DNA of 43,114 bases from an uncultured Alphaproteobacteria bacterium (GTDB lineage: Bacteria; Pseudomonadota; Alphaproteobacteria; Rhodobacterales; Rhodobacteraceae). Under the pieces are notes generated by a model that was given only the letters and a program-made list of their open reading frames with translations, was not told the DNA's origin and made no database searches. Below, piece by piece: positions 33,794 through 41,389 of this stretch. Position 1 is the first letter of the stretch, and the number at the start of each line of letters is the position of its first letter. Location of the stretch: the NCBI GenBank assembly GCA_902625475.1, contig CACOBR010000010.1, positions 1-43,114 on the forward strand. Direction: 5' to 3'. The position numbers and the translations under genes were made by a program.

Positions 33794-34243
33794 ATGTTAA
33801 AAGGAATAAATAGTCTATTGAACGCTGAAGTACTATATGCTCTAAGAGCTATGGGACACGGCGATGACTTAATAATTGCTGACACAAATTTTCCGTCTGA
33901 TAGTGTTTCAAAAGAAACCGTATTAGGAGAATTATTAAGAATAGACGCACCTGCAGCTGAAGTTGTAAAAGCTGTTTTATCTATATACCCTCTAGATACC
34001 TTTGTTGACGATTCTGCCGGAAGAATGGAGGTTGTTGGAGAGCCTGGTTCAATTCTTCCAGTAATGAGCGAGGTACAGTCTGAAGTCAGTGCAGTTGGAG
34101 GTCCAAACCCTATGGTTTCAATTGAACGTTATTCATTTTATGAAAGGGCTAAAAAAGCTTATGCTGTAATACAGACAGGAGAACGCCGATTTTATGGGTG
34201 TTTTGCCTTTCGAAAAGGTGTAGTTGGTCCAGAGGAAAATTAA
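33794..34243 (+). CDS. FucU/RbsD-family sugar mutarotase
   Basis: The 149-residue protein interconverts sugar anomers. The L-L-N-A-E-V-L-Y-A-L-R-A-M-G-H-G-D segment holds the catalytic His22, and A-D-T-N-F-P and the C-terminal F-Y-G-C-F-A-F-R-K-G-V-V fit the FucU branch (L-fucose mutarotase) more than RbsD. A Shine-Dalgarno GGGAGGA lies 7-12 bases upstream. It is immediately followed by a ribokinase gene, so the sugar may be a pentose or deoxyhexose. Confidence 0.87.
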   Translation: MLKGINSLLNAEVLYALRAMGHGDDLIIADTNFPSDSVSKETVLGELLRIDAPAAEVVKAVLSIYPLDTFVDDSAGRMEVVGEPGSILPVMSEVQSEVSAVGGPNPMVSIERYSFYERAKKAYAVIQTGERRFYGCFAFRKGVVGPEEN

Positions 34244-34247
34244 AAAA

Positions 34248-35156
34248 ATGGGTCATGTAGTAATTTTGGGAGTGTTTGTTGCAGATACTGCATATCGTGC
34301 AGAAAGAATGCCTATTATTGGTGAGACAGTTTTAGGAAACTCATTTTCTCTAGGACCAGGTGGCAAAGGCTCTAACCAAGCAGTTGCCGCTGGAAGATTG
34401 GGTGTTAAGGTTTCAATGATAAGCCGTTTAGGCAAGGATGATTTTGGCCAAATGGCCCTCGAAACTTGGAAATCATCAGGAGTAACTCCGTATATTGAAG
34501 AAGACAAAGATAGTTTTACAGGAGCTGCCTACATTTTTATAGAAGAACGTACAGGAGATAATGCTATTATTATTTCTCCTGGTGCAGCTGCAAATATTAG
34601 TCCTGAAGATCTAGAAAATAAAAAAGACCTTATTGTCAATGCTGATGTTTTTATAACTCAACTTGAACAACCATTAGAGGCTGCAAAAAAAGGTTTGGAA
34701 ATTGCAAGATCAGCAGGTGTGAAAACAATTTTAAATCCTGCTCCTGCTGTAAAATTATCTGATGGAATATTATCCTTATGCGATTTTATAACTCCGAATG
34801 AAACTGAAACAGAAACACTCACTGGAGTAAATGTTTCAACATTAGAAGATGCAGATTCAGCTTGCAAAAAATTTATAGAAATGGGTGTAAAAAATCCAAT
34901 CATTACATTGGGTCAAAAAGGTGCCTATTTACATAATCATGGACTGATAGAGAGCTACAAAGTGGGGAAAGTCTTAGAAACTACAGGAGCTGGAGATGCT
35001 TTTAATGGTGGTTTTGCTGCAGCTTTAGCTGAAGGAAAAGATATAGTGGATGCTATAAATTTTGGATGTGCAACTGCAGGTATTTCAGTAACAAGGGCTG
35101 GAACTGCTCCTTCCATGCCAACTAGGGACGAAGTAGAAAAAATTATAACAAATTAG
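34248..35156 (+). CDS. rbsK: Ribokinase-like PfkB-family sugar kinase
   Basis: About 302 residues from the ATG at 34248; AGAGGA lies 11 bases upstream inside the FucU stop region, and an in-frame TTG at 34224 overlapping FucU is less likely. PfkB signatures are G-P-G-G-K-G-S-N-Q-A-V-A-A near 38 and T-G-A-G-D-A-F-N-G-G near 245, which contains the catalytic Asp. G-K-G-S-N-Q and the N-A-D-V-F-I-T-Q-L-E segment favour ribokinase. It phosphorylates a free sugar made available by the mutarotase. The real substrate may be ribose or another pentose. Confidence 0.87.
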   Translation: MGHVVILGVFVADTAYRAERMPIIGETVLGNSFSLGPGGKGSNQAVAAGRLGVKVSMISRLGKDDFGQMALETWKSSGVTPYIEEDKDSFTGAAYIFIEERTGDNAIIISPGAAANISPEDLENKKDLIVNADVFITQLEQPLEAAKKGLEIARSAGVKTILNPAPAVKLSDGILSLCDFITPNETETETLTGVNVSTLEDADSACKKFIEMGVKNPIITLGQKGAYLHNHGLIESYKVGKVLETTGAGDAFNGGFAAALAEGKDIVDAINFGCATAGISVTRAGTAPSMPTRDEVEKIITN

Positions 35157-35201: not shown

Positions 35202-36257
35202 ATGATCAATCTTAATCAAGAATGGATTAAACCAAAAAAACCTATACCAATCGTTATATTTGTAGCTTTTTCAATTGTTAACGATGCTCATTTACCAGCC
35301 TATCAGAAGTCAGGTTTTAAAATACTTGGAATTTATGATCCGGATATAGCGAAAGCACAAAATCTGGCAACCAAATTTAATTTAGATATATTTCATAGCT
35401 TAGAAGAAGCAATTGATCAGCAAAAAGTTATCTTTGATTTAGCCACGCCACCCGAAGTGCATGCTGAAATATTAAAAATTTTATCAGAAAAGTCTGGAGT
35501 TTTGGTTCAAAAACCAATGGATAGTAATTTGGATAAAGCAACTAAAATATTAGATATCTAAAATACTAGATCACTAAAGGCTGCTGTGAATTTTCAACTT
35601 AAATTTGCTCCAATGATGATACCTTTTAAAGATGCTATCAACTCTGATTTGCTAGTATCAATTGTAGATTTTGACACTTGGCTAGCATTGGACACACCAT
35701 GGTCATTATGGAAATTTTTGGAAAATTTACCAAGAGTAGAAATTCTTTTACATTTTAAACATTATTTTGATTTTATTAAGTCCATTCACGGTAATCCAAT
35801 TGGTGTAAAAGCAAAAACACTCGGCACTTCTGGAAAAAAAACTTCTAACACTGAAACTGCAGTGATACTAGATTATGGAAAAGATATCAGATTTGCTCTA
35901 ACTATTAATCATAATCATAGTTTTGGCAGAAAATTTCAAGCTTGTTAATTTAAAATTTGTGGGACTAAAGGTGCGGCTAATGTCCATCTTGGAGTAAATT
36001 TAAATTATCCAGAAAGAGAACCTGATAAATTAGAAATAAATTTAGGAGAAAAATGGATAAATATAACTTTAAAAGGATCTTGGTTTATTGAGAGCTTTGG
36101 AAATAGAATGGTACAACTACAACGATTTGTTAGTGGTGAAGAAAGTGAACTTATTGCAGGGGTTGAAGACTCTTGGGACAAAAGGGCGCTTATAGAGGTA
36201 GCCTATAAAAATAATGAAAGTCCAGGAACTTTATTAACAAAATATATAAATAAATAA
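35202..36257 (+). pseudogene. Gfo/Idh/MocA-family oxidoreductase, interrupted by two in-frame TAA codons
   Basis: One reading frame of 352 codons runs from ATG 35202 to TAA 36257, broken only by TAA at 35559-35561 and TAA at 35946-35948; no frameshift is needed. The translation on all three pieces is one Gfo/Idh protein: D-A-H-L-P-A-Y near the N-terminus, V-Q-K-P-M-D (the EKP-type motif with Gln), the A-A-V-N-F-Q-L-K-F-A-P segment right after the first stop, and F-K-I-C-G-T-K-G-A-A right after the second. The nucleotide loop where G-x-G-G-I-V is expected reads V-A-F-S-I-V, so the cofactor site is also degraded. It lies downstream of the ribokinase gene and convergent with the lipoyl gene. Confidence 0.85.
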
Positions 36258-36275: not shown

Positions 36276-36506
36276 TTATTCTATCGTACAAACAACTTCT
36301 CCTACTTGTACTAAATCACCTTCATTTGAATTTATTTGAGAAATTTTACCACTAGTAGGAGCCTCAATTTCCAAGGATGTTTTTGTAGTGGATATTAAAA
36401 GCACAACATCACCTTGTTCTACATCATCACCTGTTGCAACTAACCATTCTGTTATTTCTGCCTCTGATATTTCATTACCCAGATTTGGTATTATTATATC
36501 TGTCAT
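36276..36506 (-). CDS. Free-standing lipoyl-domain protein
   Basis: The 76 residues consist of a single lipoyl domain with nothing else: I-P-N-L-G-N-E-I-S-E-A at the N-terminus, the lipoylation hairpin S-T-T-K-T-S-L-E-I-E-A-P with Lys42 at the tip, and G-K-I-S-Q-I-N-S-N-E-G-D-L-V-Q-V-G near the end. Thr-Lys-Thr rather than Met-Lys-Met argues for lipoate, not biotin. It lacks the subunit-binding and acyltransferase domains of an E2. It is last in the PfkB-E1-lipoyl operon and follows the E1 by 18 bases, so E1 is its obvious partner. Confidence 0.9.
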   Translation of the reverse strand: MTDIIIPNLGNEISEAEITEWLVATGDDVEQGDVVLLISTTKTSLEIEAPTSGKISQINSNEGDLVQVGEVVCTIE

Positions 36507-36524
36507 TTAAAATTTCCTTTTTAA

Positions 36525-38987
36525 TTATAAACCTTTTTTCGCTAAATCTATAAAATCCCAATCTTTTCGAAGTCCTCTCTTATTTATCCTTTTTTCTGGG
36601 AAAAAATCTCTAAAAATAAGATCTAAGATATCTTCTGATTGTGGAGAATATGTTTTTTCCATATCAGCTCCTGGCGCAATCCAATTAGGCGCACCAATTA
36701 TCATAGGCGATGCTTTAAGATTTTTGAAGGCAAACTTTGAGACGTTTGTAGCAATAGTATTTGCAAAACTACCTCTTTCTACAGCTTCAGAAACAATTAG
36801 TAATCGACCGGTCAACTTTACTGAATTTAACAACATCCCATAATCAAATGGGACTAATGATCTTGCATCAATAATTTCTGCATCAATATCGTGGTTTAAT
36901 AATTCTATACTTGCATCTAATGCCGCATATAGTGAAGCTCCTATTGTAAGGATAGTTATGTCCTTTCCACTCCTTCTTTTTACTGCTTTACCAAAAGGTA
37001 CTGTATAATAGTTTTTTGGTACTCCATTTTCGGTAAATATTTCAACTTTATCATATAACCGCTGACTTTCAAAAAATATCGTTGGATCATTTGAACATAG
37101 AGAACTGGCCATTAATCCTTTTGCATCATAGGGTGTTGCTGGGTATACAATTGACAATCCTGGAATATGTGTAAGTAAGGAAGTCCAATCTTGAGAGTGT
37201 TGTGCTCCATATTTAGAACCAATTGAAGCTCTTAATACAATAGGTAAATTTAATTCACCAGCAGACATAGCTTGCCATTTAGCTAACTGGTTAAAAATTT
37301 CATCTCCTGCCCTTCCAATAAAATCTGAATACATAAGTTCAATTATTGCTCGACCACCTGATATAGCATACCCAATTGCGGTTGAAACTATAGCTGCTTC
37401 AGATATTGGGGAATTAAATAATCTATTAATTGGAATAATATCAGAAAATCCTCTATAAACACCAAATGCACCTCCCCAATCACGACATTCTTCTCCATAT
37501 GCAATTAATGATTTATCCCTTGATAAATGATAAATAATTGCTTCAGCTAGACTATCTCTAAGAGTAATTGCTCTCATTCCAGATAATAAAGAGCCCTCCT
37601 CAGACTTTCCAAATCTTGACTTTTTTTGTAAACTTTTCATTTGATTTACTTCACCCTCATTCTGCAGTAAGTCACTCGTAAGCGTTGAAACACTGATGAC
37701 TTTTTTATTGAATGTAAAATCTCCAATAATTGTGGGGTTTTTTTCAAAATCAATACTTGGAGTTAACTCTCTATCCACGACTTTACTAGTCAGATACTCT
37801 ATTTGATTTTGAACTTTTTCAATCATATTATTTAATTCATTTTTATTTATGATACCTGCTTCTATCATTTTTTTTGAATATTGTTGAATAGGATCAAAAA
37901 ATTTCCAATGCTTGATTTCATCTCTTGATCTATATGCATTAGTATCAGTTGTAGAATGACCAGAGTATCTATAGCATTCAATATCTAGTAATACAGGCCC
38001 ATTACCCTCAATTAATAGTTTTCTTTTTCGGATAATTGCATCAGCAACAGATAGTGGGTCAGATCCATTTATTGTTTCTGCATGCATTTGTTCAGAATTT
38101 ACCCCAGTAGCAATCCTTGATAAACGATCCCAAGACATTGTTTCACCCAAGGTTTGACCACCCATAGCATAAAAATTATTCATAAAACAAAATAACATTG
38201 GTGGATTTTTATTATATGGTTCAGGCCATAAATTTTTATATTGTCCCATAGACGAAAAATTCATTGATTCCCAAACTAAACCACAACCAGTACTTCCATC
38301 TCCTAAATTTGCTATACAAATACTTTCTTCTTGGTTTAAATGAGCATGTAAAGCGGCGCCCATAGCAATACCCGAAGAACCTCCAACAATTGCATTATTT
38401 GGAAATGTACCAAAAGGTGTGAAGAAAGCATGCATTGACCCACCCATACCTTTATTAAATCCTAGTTCACGCATAAAAATTTCAGCTAATACTCCACTAA
38501 GTAAAAACATTTCTGCATCATTAAATTCTTTATCATTTAAATTTTTATGAACATATGAAATTAATTTCCCACCATTATAATATTGCATTATTGAGTTTAT
38601 TTTGTCTCTTCTCAGATTCTTAATAGCTGAAAGACCCTTGGCTATCATTTCACCATGACTTCTATGAGAACCAAAAATTTTATCCTCAGGTTTTAGAGCA
38701 AATGCAGCTCCAACAGCTGCAGCCTCTTGACCTATAGAAAGATGTGCAGGCCCATTATAAGTATAATTTATATTCTTATATGAACCTGTTGTTTTGAATG
38801 AATTAAGCATATTTTCAAATTCACGAACAATATACATATGCCTTAATACTTCTTTCAAATTTTCCTTACCGTGTATCTTTAATTCATCATCAATTGATTT
38901 CTGATATTGATGAATAGGAAGCTCTTTACTTTTTAAAAAGTCTTTAGCAAAAATTTTATTAGGGTCTATATCGATGTTTTTAGGCAT
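36525..38987 (-). CDS. TPP-dependent 2-oxoacid dehydrogenase-like E1, alpha and beta fused
   Basis: The 820 residues combine an E1-alpha-like half (about 40-400; G-P-A-H-L-S-I-G-Q-E-A, S-H-R-S-H-G, the TPP motif G-D-G-S-T-G-C-G then N-N-F-Y-A-M) and an E1-beta-like half (about 485-810; Y-G-E-E-C-R-D-W-G-G-A-F, L-F-N-S-P-I-S-E-A-A-I, S-K-Y-G-A-Q-H-S-Q-D-W, I-V-S-E-A-V-E-R-G-S-F). Relatives include acetoin, pyruvate and branched-chain E1 enzymes. The E1 should decarboxylate a 2-oxo compound (or cleave an acyloin) and reductively acylate lipoate on its neighbour. Neither E2 nor E3 is encoded in the window. It starts 4 bases after the PfkB stop. Substrate unknown. Confidence 0.88.
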   Translation of the reverse strand: MPKNIDIDPNKIFAKDFLKSKELPIHQYQKSIDDELKIHGKENLKEVLRHMYIVREFENMLNSFKTTGSYKNINYTYNGPAHLSIGQEAAAVGAAFALKPEDKIFGSHRSHGEMIAKGLSAIKNLRRDKINSIMQYYNGGKLISYVHKNLNDKEFNDAEMFLLSGVLAEIFMRELGFNKGMGGSMHAFFTPFGTFPNNAIVGGSSGIAMGAALHAHLNQEESICIANLGDGSTGCGLVWESMNFSSMGQYKNLWPEPYNKNPPMLFCFMNNFYAMGGQTLGETMSWDRLSRIATGVNSEQMHAETINGSDPLSVADAIIRKRKLLIEGNGPVLLDIECYRYSGHSTTDTNAYRSRDEIKHWKFFDPIQQYSKKMIEAGIINKNELNNMIEKVQNQIEYLTSKVVDRELTPSIDFEKNPTIIGDFTFNKKVISVSTLTSDLLQNEGEVNQMKSLQKKSRFGKSEEGSLLSGMRAITLRDSLAEAIIYHLSRDKSLIAYGEECRDWGGAFGVYRGFSDIIPINRLFNSPISEAAIVSTAIGYAISGGRAIIELMYSDFIGRAGDEIFNQLAKWQAMSAGELNLPIVLRASIGSKYGAQHSQDWTSLLTHIPGLSIVYPATPYDAKGLMASSLCSNDPTIFFESQRLYDKVEIFTENGVPKNYYTVPFGKAVKRRSGKDITILTIGASLYAALDASIELLNHDIDAEIIDARSLVPFDYGMLLNSVKLTGRLLIVSEAVERGSFANTIATNVSKFAFKNLKASPMIIGAPNWIAPGADMEKTYSPQSEDILDLIFRDFFPEKRINKRGLRKDWDFIDLAKKGL

Positions 38988-38991
38988 TATT

Positions 38992-39951
38992 CTAAAAATT
39001 TTCCTTGTTTATAAAAATTTCAATATCTTCTTTTGAAGGCGGATTACAGCCTATTTTTTTGCAATTCAAAGCTGCTGCAATAGAAGCTTTATCCATCATT
39101 GAAGACAAATCTGGTTTTTTTAAATTTTTGACTAAACCTATATCGAATGTTTTATGATCTATAAACCAGTTCAAGATACTAGCCATATAGGTATCACCTG
39201 CACCAACTGTATCTTTTAAGTCAGAAATTTTTTTACTAGAAATTTTAATTTCAAAATTTGATGTTTTTCCAATAGATCCTTTTTCTCCAAGTGTAAGAAT
39301 AAGTAATTGAGCATTAGTTTTGGATTGAAGGACTTTAAAAGATTGATTTAATGATTTACTTGGATAAATCCATTTTAAATCTTCATTGCTTAGTTTTAGA
39401 ATATCCACATCAAAAAACATTCTTTCTAATCTTTTGATATAATTTTTACGATCTTTTATTAGCATTGGACGTACATTTGGATCCAAACTGGTAATTAATC
39501 CTTTTTGTTTGCATATCTTAAAAAATTTTTCCCAAACTTCAGCATCTTGGCCTTCTATGAGTCCCAAGGAACCAACATGAAAAATTTTTGAATTGATGGG
39601 TAATATATCTAACAAATTTTCTAAATTTACTTTCCTTTCTGCTGTGTCATTTCTATGAAAGCTATAAGACGGAATACCATTTCTTATTGATACCACAGCT
39701 AAAGAAGTTGGATTTGAAATACTCTTTGATAATATTTTTACCCCACTTTCTTTCAACTTAGAAGAAAGTAACTTTCCAAGTGTATCTTTTGATAATGGTG
39801 TAAGATAAGATACTTTTGCACCTAACTTACTTGTAGCTATCGCAACATTATATGGAGAACCCCCAGGATTTGCTAAATAGATTGGGACTCCTTCAGAATT
39901 AAAACTTGAAGAAACTAAATCAATAAGATTTTCTCCACCAATCACAATCAC
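38992..39951 (-). CDS. PfkB-family carbohydrate kinase (fructokinase-like)
   Basis: The 319-residue protein starts at GTG (39951), with GGAG about 7 bases upstream. It opens I-V-I-G-G-E-N-L-I-D-L-V, has the first PfkB signature around N-P-G-G-S-P-Y-N-V-A-I-A (near 28) and the second D-T-V-G-A-G-D-T-Y-M near 248 with the catalytic Asp. S-P-Y-N-V-A is typical of fructokinases and related kinases. It heads the operon with the fused E1 and the lipoyl protein, suggesting that it activates the sugar whose later product the E1 uses (inference). Confidence 0.87.
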   Translation of the reverse strand: MIVIGGENLIDLVSSSFNSEGVPIYLANPGGSPYNVAIATSKLGAKVSYLTPLSKDTLGKLLSSKLKESGVKILSKSISNPTSLAVVSIRNGIPSYSFHRNDTAERKVNLENLLDILPINSKIFHVGSLGLIEGQDAEVWEKFFKICKQKGLITSLDPNVRPMLIKDRKNYIKRLERMFFDVDILKLSNEDLKWIYPSKSLNQSFKVLQSKTNAQLLILTLGEKGSIGKTSNFEIKISSKKISDLKDTVGAGDTYMASILNWFIDHKTFDIGLVKNLKKPDLSSMMDKASIAAALNCKKIGCNPPSKEDIEIFINKENF

Positions 39952-40567
39952 ATAAGAACTCCATAAAAATAAATTATCTTAATGTTAAGAAATAAAACAA
40001 TCAAGCTTACAAGATCTTTCAAAAATTAAATCAACAAATAAACTCATAATGAGTACAATAACTCCAAAAAATAAAACGGGATCGTGACAGCATAACCAAT
40101 ATTAACAAGTGGTATAATTAATAAAATAAAAAATATTAAGTAAAAATTGCCAAAAGTTTATTAAAAAAAATATAGGTTATAAAGATAGGATAAAGAGTAT
40201 TAAACATAAAACTGAAATTGAGGTATTTGAAAGAATGATTTGTTGAAGATCATTTATTTCTTTTGGTCCTAATAACCTCGCCGTTTGACCATTAGCTAAT
40301 TTTTCCCCAGCAATCTGAAGATTTTAGATGCATTATGCTCTAATAGTGAGATTTATGCTTTTAAAAAGAGGCTTGCAGATGTCATCATGGTTAAAAATGC
40401 ATTTGCCGTAGTTGCAACTGCTAAACTTTCTTTGTCCACAAATTTAATCCTCACAATAGGTGTTATACTTCCAACCTAAGTTTATTTAATTAATTGAATT
40501 TATTGTAAATTGTGAATTTAGATTTATAATAATATAATCTAATTTTAATACTATTCTGGAAGATAAT
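39952..40567. other. Non-coding region with a possible degraded membrane-protein gene
   Basis: About 600 bases without an intact gene between the divergent PfkB and GAF genes. On the minus strand, pieces of open frame can be strung together with shifts and stops: I-T-P-I-V-R-I-K-F-V-D-K-E-S ending at a TAA (about 40466-40354), I-A-G-E-K-L-A-N-G-Q-T-A-R-L-L-G-P-K-E running into a hydrophobic stretch (about 40315-40178), then I-P-L-V-N-I-G-Y-A-V-T-I-P-F and G-V-I-V-L-I-M-S-L-F-V-D-L-I. This looks like a decayed integral membrane protein, but the family was not recognised. Promoters for both flanking genes must also lie here. Confidence 0.4.
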
Positions 40568-41389
40568 TTGTCATTTGAAGCGTCACCATTACCTAAGAAT
40601 GAAGAAAGTAGACTACTTGCAGTTGAAAAAACTGGGGTCTTAGACATTGTTAATGAAGAGATTTATAAAGTTTATTGCCACCTTTCTAGACAAATAACTA
40701 AATGCCCAGATAGTTGGGCGAATGTTATTGATAAATATCGCCAATATAATTTTGTACTCGATGGTGAAGATATTAATGATCAAATCAAAGAAGAAAGAAG
40801 ATCTTCACCAAGACCGCTAACATTTTGCCAATATGCTTTAAATAGTACAAGTCCACTTATAGCCAACGATTTAACAAAGCATAAGATATTTAAAAATCAC
40901 CCCTCTGTCTTAAAAATTGATGGACCCAGATTCTATGCAGCATTTCCATTAATAAATTCAGAAGGCTATATTCTTGGGTCATTATGTGTTCGAGATTTCA
41001 GAGTAAGAAGACTTTCAAAAAATATTATAAATTTAATGATAGGTTTATCTAAAAAACTCTCTCACCAATTAGATATCCAAACCGAACAAAGACAACTATC
41101 AATTGAAAGAATTACAAGAGTTATGGAAACATTAGACGAAGAAATAACTAATCTTTCCTTAAGTGAAACTATATCTATATTAAAATGTCTTTCTAATGGT
41201 TTGCTGAGTACTAAGGATCAAAAGAAACTTTTAGATTTAGATCTTATCGATAAAAATTTTAATTTAACTAAAAAATCAAAAGAATTAAAAAATTTTCTCA
41301 AATTGGATGCAGCAGTTTTAAAAAGGATAAAAATGCCAGCATTAAAAACAACTGAAATTGATGAATTATTCAAGGGTTTAGATAAATAA
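40568..41389 (+). CDS. GAF-domain sensor-like protein
   Basis: The 273-residue protein starts at TTG (40568), supported by GGAAGA 4-9 bases upstream and by the typical opening P-L-P-K-N-E-E-S-R-L-L-A-V-E-K-T-G-V-L-D of GAF-containing sensors. The GAF part (about 10-170) includes S-P-R-P-L-T-F-C-Q-Y-A and G-S-L-C-V-R-D. A helical segment (170-205) and a C-terminal tail without kinase, cyclase or GGDEF domain follow, so the output is unknown. The next gene overlaps its stop codon (TAATG), so the two are co-translated and probably interact. Confidence 0.78.
   Translation: MSFEASPLPKNEESRLLAVEKTGVLDIVNEEIYKVYCHLSRQITKCPDSWANVIDKYRQYNFVLDGEDINDQIKEERRSSPRPLTFCQYALNSTSPLIANDLTKHKIFKNHPSVLKIDGPRFYAAFPLINSEGYILGSLCVRDFRVRRLSKNIINLMIGLSKKLSHQLDIQTEQRQLSIERITRVMETLDEEITNLSLSETISILKCLSNGLLSTKDQKKLLDLDLIDKNFNLTKKSKELKNFLKLDAAVLKRIKMPALKTTEIDELFKGLDK

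Follow-up and report, generated by a model that had tools for sequence, protein, structure and literature searches.

Here, we describe a three-gene operon encoding a PfkB-family sugar kinase, a fused alpha-beta E1 of the 2-oxoacid dehydrogenase type and an orphan lipoyl domain, located in a 43,114 nt stretch of DNA (contig CACOBR010000010.1 of assembly GCA_902625475.1; in the following, the window) from an uncultured marine alphaproteobacterium of the family Rhodobacteraceae. The reading that we tentatively favour is that this trio forms the heart of a lipoate-dependent system for sugar degradation that is built like acetoin dehydrogenase and in which the E1 would cleave a ketose phosphate.

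An intact kinase-E1-lipoyl operon

All three genes are located on the minus strand and are separated by gaps of only 4 bp (kinase to E1) and 18 bp (E1 to lipoyl domain). The kinase gene (38992..39951) starts with GTG and encodes 319 aa with a Pfam PfkB match at E 3.2e-34. The product of the E1 gene (36525..38987), 820 aa in length, combines the Pfam domains E1_dh, Transket_pyr and Transketolase_C, all scoring above cut-off, and possesses a thiamine diphosphate (TPP) site and the catalytic histidines. The third open reading frame (ORF; 36276..36506) encodes a bare lipoyl domain of 76 aa (PF00364, Biotin_lipoyl, E 1.1e-19), in which Lys42 (codon 36381..36383, minus strand) is the predicted lipoylation site and stands in a TTK context. 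A preliminary description of this DNA had given the coordinates, strand, lengths and Lys42 exactly. The same kinase-E1-lipoyl order was found in the same-genus genomes G001, G002, G006, G009 and G011, and comparison with G001 and G002 yielded dN/dS values of 0.14 for the E1, 0.05 for the lipoyl ORF and 0.22 for the kinase. Hence, the three genes are intact and under purifying selection in the window, and the conserved order together with the low dN/dS indicates that the trio is more than a chance arrangement.

The window is contig C10 of a 1.52 Mb genome (76 contigs, 66% complete). In a profile search of the contigs of this genome, C10 was without 2-oxoacid_dh, E3_binding or Pyr_redox_dim matches. 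Canonical E2 matches (2-oxoacid_dh) were detected on C6 and C16, as were those to E3_binding; the matches to Pyr_redox_dim lie on C16 and C34. All profile matches thus lie on other contigs, in agreement with the initial impression that no E2, subunit-binding domain or E3 is encoded nearby. Judging from gene context, the canonical E2s of this genome are probably those of the pyruvate and oxoglutarate dehydrogenases.

A putative split E2 in related loci

Relatives of the window E1 were identified in a species-genome collection with two short patterns, and a simple script served to call ORFs. The best 80 of the 234 relatives found (L058-L137), which are 47-97% identical over most or all of the protein, were divided into 60 proteobacterial-group loci and 20 other loci; the 60 include L060, which is labelled Flavobacteriales, is 83% identical to the window and is probably mis-binned. 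In 58 of the 60 proteobacterial-group loci, a lipoyl ORF follows within 0.7 kb of the E1 (37/38 where more than 7 kb is available on both sides), and an alpha/beta hydrolase is encoded within the next 1.2 kb in 47 of the 60 (32/38). The hydrolase is the E2-like partner that the preliminary description had missed: the absence of such a gene holds for the window's genus, whereas in most relatives one co-occurs with the module.

AcoABC-type E2 proteins consist of a lipoyl domain and an alpha/beta hydrolase. The best NCBIfam model of the window lipoyl ORF is PRK14875 (AcoC), matched at model positions 4-77 of 372 with 62 bits; the cut-off of 307 bits applies to the whole protein and is not reached by a single domain. 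The same model was best for the hydrolases of L071 and L064, here at positions 130-370 and 121-365 of 372; for all other hydrolases, the assignment came from a profile made of 25 of them and not from NCBIfam. Because both ORFs best match PRK14875, in complementary halves, they look like one AcoC cut at its linker, that is, a split acetoin dehydrogenase-type E2, as far as sequence comparison can tell. An AcoC-like GHS(L/M)G(G/A) motif was present in 17 of 19 aligned rows (11/11 AcoC-type references and 6/8 hydrolases). Furthermore, a lysine equivalent to Lys42 is conserved in 51/51 aligned lipoyl ORFs of related loci, where it sits in the hairpin turn of the lipoyl domain.

The preliminary description had compared the lipoyl protein with GcvH and with LbpA of sulfur oxidation. 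This comparison is valid insofar as all are stand-alone lipoyl carriers. It fails in that the window protein is a 76 aa E2-type domain reaching 22 bits with the GcvH-related NCBIfam model (cut-off 150) versus 62 bits with the AcoC model, and contains a single cysteine (C73) instead of the two that are conserved in LbpA according to PMC6067878. The LbpA/GcvH assignment was rejected because of the weak GcvH-related score and the single cysteine. Among the 13 window proteins scanned, none was Hdr-like. A biotin carrier was rejected as well, given the TTK/TPK context and the AcoC and E2 lipoyl models as best matches.

No canonical E2 was detected in any of the 60 proteobacterial-group loci within the stretch examined. 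Of the other 20 loci, 12 possess a canonical E2 and 11 an E3, in the order E2-E3-E1 in Clostridia. Thus, one E1 family goes with different acyltransferases.

Among the 13 proteobacterial-group loci lacking the hydrolase, three (L085, L102, L108) end less than 300 bp from the E1, six (L058-L063) belong to the window's genus or near kin, and the others are L070, L089, L103 and L120. In L089, from a Bauldia metagenome-assembled genome, a SorC-type regulator gene starts 24 bp after the E1, and no lipoyl or hydrolase gene was detected in between. The loci L064-L068 (labelled Rhodobiaceae, Rhodospirillaceae, SAR116 or Alphaproteobacteria) share the kinase-E1-lipoyl order and have the hydrolase, and L064 and L068 form the sister branch to the window's lineage in the E1 tree. 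In the window's genus, an AcoC-like hydrolase is absent at the locus (L058-L063) and was not found in 12 genomes; matches at E up to 0.001 occur in 10 of the 12, are 23-35% identical, mostly partial and of a generic type. Relocation of the hydrolase elsewhere in these genomes was rejected since the two near-full matches are only 23% identical and each carries an internal stop. The simplest history would be that the window's lineage has lost the hydrolase.

No dedicated E2 was found elsewhere in the genomes of the window's genus, and a third canonical E2 was rejected for the genus, with at most two matches in each of the 12 genomes, a 97%-complete one included. Because no dedicated E2 was found in the genus genomes, borrowing of the E2 and E3 of another complex, already considered in that description, appears likeliest for the window's genus. 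Alternatively, no acyl group might be passed to CoA at all, with E1 and lipoyl protein acting as a carboligase or aldehyde-transfer system, or with hydrolytic acyl release, and an E2 would then be unneeded. No acyltransferase gene adjoins the trio in the window's genus, and the E1 model is transketolase-like in its overall fold. We nevertheless regard this alternative as improbable: the relatives mostly retain the AcoC-like half or a canonical E2, the transketolase match is common to the whole superfamily, and we know of no role of the lipoyl group in plain carboligation.

The fused E1 forms a family of its own

All 12 checked TPP and catalytic positions are in place in the window E1, and four of the 12 vary slightly across the 39-row E1 family; we assume that these residues have the roles of their counterparts in human pyruvate dehydrogenase. 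In a phylogenetic tree, a 21-row sample of the fused E1 family formed one clade (support 100/100) that is separate both from pyruvate dehydrogenase E1s and from E1s with an AcoC-like neighbour gene. Duplicate loci were omitted from this tree; four long rows were flagged, as was the risk that long branches had been joined falsely.

The alpha motif of the window E1 reads SHRSHGE, compared with SYRDHGH in the pyruvate-type E1 of the same genome. Its His108 is present in 39/39 family rows and in 14/14 E1s beside an AcoC-like E2, whereas E1s beside a canonical E2 have His in three and Tyr in five of eight cases. Ser110 (39/39 family rows) and Glu113 (38/39) distinguish the family from 22 reference rows; four long-branch reference rows were removed before these residues were counted. 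Compared with AcoABC acetoin dehydrogenase, the system shares a TPP-dependent E1, a lipoyl carrier, the HR.HG alpha motif and, in most relatives, the AcoC-like catalytic half. It differs in that E1 alpha and beta are fused, lipoyl domain and hydrolase are encoded by separate genes with the hydrolase absent in the window's genus, and a sugar kinase is linked. Pyruvate and branched-chain 2-oxo acid dehydrogenase E1s (1w85, 1um9) resemble the fused E1 in fold, TPP and catalytic residues and the GHS loop, whereas here the operon lacks an E2 core or subunit-binding domain and the context is sugar catabolism.

An AlphaFold model of the E1 (mean pLDDT 89.0, pTM 0.91) found its closest solved matches in the beta subunits of pyruvate and branched-chain dehydrogenases, followed by transketolases, and this predicted structure adds no evidence on the substrate. 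The NCBIfam models of transketolase and DXS match the E1 only distantly.

We also considered that the E1 is an extra E1 of the pyruvate dehydrogenase complex, with the lipoyl protein as an accessory and the kinase as an incidental neighbour. A canonical complex is encoded in the same genome, and the lack of a detectable dedicated E2 or AcoC-like half in the genus would fit this idea. We give it only a slight chance, as the family forms its own clade, has Ser110 and Glu113 as residues of its own relative to pyruvate- and acetoin-type references, and occurs with sugar genes on plasmids and across phyla.

Linkage to sugar metabolism

The best named NCBIfam models of the window kinase are fructokinase and 5-dehydro-2-deoxygluconokinase, all under their cut-offs and none at an equivalog cut-off. 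The sequence contains a DTVGAGD motif, which we presume to have its usual meaning in this kinase. With the window's profile, a PfkB kinase was detected in 39 of the 60 proteobacterial-group loci and an FGGY kinase in 8, giving 44 loci with either of these two unrelated sugar-kinase families. The pairing of a stand-alone lipoyl domain with a fused E1, to which the preliminary description had drawn attention, recurs beyond the window and often includes a sugar kinase. The FGGY kinase of L086 is a xylulokinase above cut-off. The PfkB profile matched in none of 38 reference loci around acetoin- or pyruvate-type E1 genes, several of which overlap and which are mostly shorter (approximately 4-19 kb versus up to 18 kb). 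Furthermore, SorC/LsrR/DeoR-type regulators are encoded in 29/60 loci.

On Rhizobium plasmids, the order is epimerase, sugar transporter, E1, lipoyl domain, hydrolase, kinase and regulator. The Agrobacterium plasmid pAt15955 carries E1, lipoyl domain, hydrolase, regulator, a lipoyl synthase gene, mannitol dehydrogenase, sugar transporter, xylulokinase and a carbohydrate kinase. The lipoyl synthase gene, lipA (L201, 18580-19551), lies beside the E1-lipoyl-hydrolase cluster, and no homologue of it was detected in the 80 loci. In Pleomorphomonas, a xylulose kinase gene adjoins genes deposited as acoB-aceF-acoC-deoR, of which acoB-aceF-acoC correspond to E1, lipoyl domain and hydrolase. A kinase-E1 arrangement is also present in L117 (Chloroflexota).

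The census of neighbouring genes drew on 139 of 142 ORFs (three were dropped by hand), each of which has a homologue in at least one other locus. For this census, 15 loci that were near-duplicate or short were set aside, as were the larger ATP-binding cassette (ABC) transporter clusters, and transporters are under-counted by design. A GH95-family gene, presumably for an alpha-L-fucosidase, was observed 16 bp after a clostridial E1 (L125, 10485-12797); the same stretch also encodes an FGGY kinase and a regulator of the DeoR type. Such a neighbour occurs in 1/80 loci and was not used as evidence for an L-fucose pathway.

Proposed mechanism

A more specific version of our reading is a new lipoate-dependent complex in which a kinase-fed ketose phosphate, perhaps a 1-deoxyketose phosphate, is cleaved oxidatively by the fused E1, and a free lipoyl shuttle serves an AcoC-like transferase or, in the window's genus, the pyruvate dehydrogenase core, so that acyl-CoA, NADH and a shorter aldose phosphate are formed. 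We propose this version with greater reservation than the general one. In the first step, the PfkB kinase would phosphorylate a ketose at its far end. E1-bound TPP would then attack the ketone of the ketose phosphate, split the C2-C3 bond and release the shorter aldose phosphate, while the two-carbon acyl group would be transferred to the disulfide of lipoyl-Lys42. The small lipoyl protein would act as a mobile carrier, delivering the acyl group to an acyltransferase that makes acyl-CoA. This may be the separate AcoC-like alpha/beta hydrolase in most proteobacterial-group relatives, as gene order suggests; in the window's genus, this task would most likely fall to the E2 of the pyruvate dehydrogenase complex. 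Finally, a general E3 would reoxidise the carrier with NAD+.

A ketose phosphate is favoured over a sugar acid because of the types of the companion kinases. The weakest step concerns the group transferred: the AcoC-like half and the remaining canonical E2s of the window's genome, probably of the pyruvate and oxoglutarate type, point to an acetyl group and hence to a 1-deoxyketose phosphate. A 1-deoxyketose, from which acetyl-CoA and an aldose phosphate would be formed, is thus our preferred but unproven substrate class. The TPP-dependent cleavage of ketose phosphates proposed here is also the chemistry of transketolase, phosphoketolase and DXS, none of which, to our knowledge, uses a lipoyl carrier.

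Several observations weigh against this reading. No LipA was detected in the window genome, which is incomplete; 6 of 12 genus genomes encode it. In the tree, the window E1 lies outside the acetoin-type clade on its own deep branch, and its GHS loop is pyruvate dehydrogenase-like and was found in only two acetoin-type rows. The hydrolases of L071 and L064 score 185 and 138 bits against the PRK14875 cut-off of 307, being part-length matches. No kinase was found in 16/60 loci within the stretch examined (it is present in 28/38 with more than 7 kb on both sides). Finally, lactonase-like, mannonate dehydratase, SGL, SDR and aldo-keto reductase neighbours could suggest sugar acids and, hence, a 2-oxo acid substrate.

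These neighbours and the GHS loop would fit a true 2-oxo acid dehydrogenase, in which a (phosphorylated) 2-oxo sugar acid from a sugar pathway is decarboxylated oxidatively onto the lipoyl carrier. Consistent with this possibility, 23/23 E1 relatives with solved structures, taken at E up to 1e-10, belong to the 2-oxo acid dehydrogenases, and L-fuconolactonase-like genes occur in 13/80 loci, without reaching the model cut-off. The companion kinases are, however, ketose-kinase-like (fructokinase-like, xylulokinase), His108 is of the acetoin type and the split E2 half is AcoC-like. We therefore consider a 2-oxo acid substrate rather unlikely, if worth serious attention, and retain ketose-phosphate cleavage as the favoured reading.

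Five lipoate-dependent complexes have been characterised, plus the LbpA sulfur system, according to PMC6067878. No published description of the E1-lipoyl-kinase module was found in the literature searched, which largely excluded subscription papers, and the cluster goes unmentioned in the accessible part of PMC3333776. We view the module as a complex of the 2-oxo acid/acetoin dehydrogenase type whose E2 has been taken apart, and there is a real chance that its chemistry itself is new. If so, an E2 would be separable into two parts, a free carrier and a transferase that stands apart and can even be dispensed with, and a sugar-phosphate member would constitute a new route from sugars to acyl-CoA and a new use of an old cofactor. 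The scheme would also assign predicted functions to genes that currently carry only the names 'alpha-ketoacid dehydrogenase subunit alpha/beta' and 'lipoyl domain-containing protein', as on Rhizobium plasmids.

Distribution of the module

E1 and lipoyl domain together are a rare but widespread module. The rarity of the E1 family follows from a search of 398 genomes drawn evenly from the phylum, in which only the window's own genome matched at 1e-150. Within the genus, the window E1 has matches at E up to 2.1e-104 in 9 of 12 genomes (the window's included; two are cut by contig ends), and the remaining three gave weaker matches only, to other E1-type genes. In G041, a genome of the same family, E1 and a lipoyl ORF lie at the end of a contig, and no kinase gene adjoins them. 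The labels of the 80 loci include Alphaproteobacteria, Granulosicoccaceae, Leptothrix, Planctomycetota, Chloroflexota, Clostridia and Methylomirabilota, and 16 plasmid records carry the module (12 from Rhizobium, three from Agrobacterium and one from Pleomorphomonas). Among viral contigs, one search returned nothing and another a single 26% match. Members of the E1 family with no lipoyl gene in the stretches examined were observed in L116, L122, L124, L126 and L136 (Planctomycetota, uncultured bacterium or Methylomirabilota), the stretch of L126 measuring only 5 kb.

Gene loss around the trio

A deletion scar lies at 39952..40568, where approximately 3.5 kb has been lost in comparison with G002. 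At this site, G002 encodes a sugar ABC transporter (binding protein, permease and ATPase) and an L-fucose-mutarotase-like protein. There, genes for the sugar-binding protein and the permease precede the trio, which ends the operon in the order kinase, E1 and lipoyl domain, and the ATPase gene is divergent. The ORFs of G001 suggest a different partial loss of this transporter, and the transporter may be eroding independently in G001 and the window. On the other side of the trio, a GFO/IDH/MocA oxidoreductase gene (35202..36257, plus strand) is broken by two in-frame stops; it is intact (351 aa) in G001, G002, G004, G006 and G009.

Together with the absent hydrolase, these losses could mean that the locus is decaying in the window's lineage and that the trio is a remnant. 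This is very unlikely in our view, as the three genes are intact at dN/dS values of 0.05-0.22 and the hydrolase-less trio persists in diverged genomes of the genus, for example G006, whose E1 is 69% identical. An RbsD/FucU-family gene and a ribokinase gene (33794..35156, plus strand), which belong to a neighbouring sugar operon, stay beside the trio in same-genus relatives. In G005 (L052), the copy of the GFO/IDH/MocA gene is apparently also split, into two ORFs.

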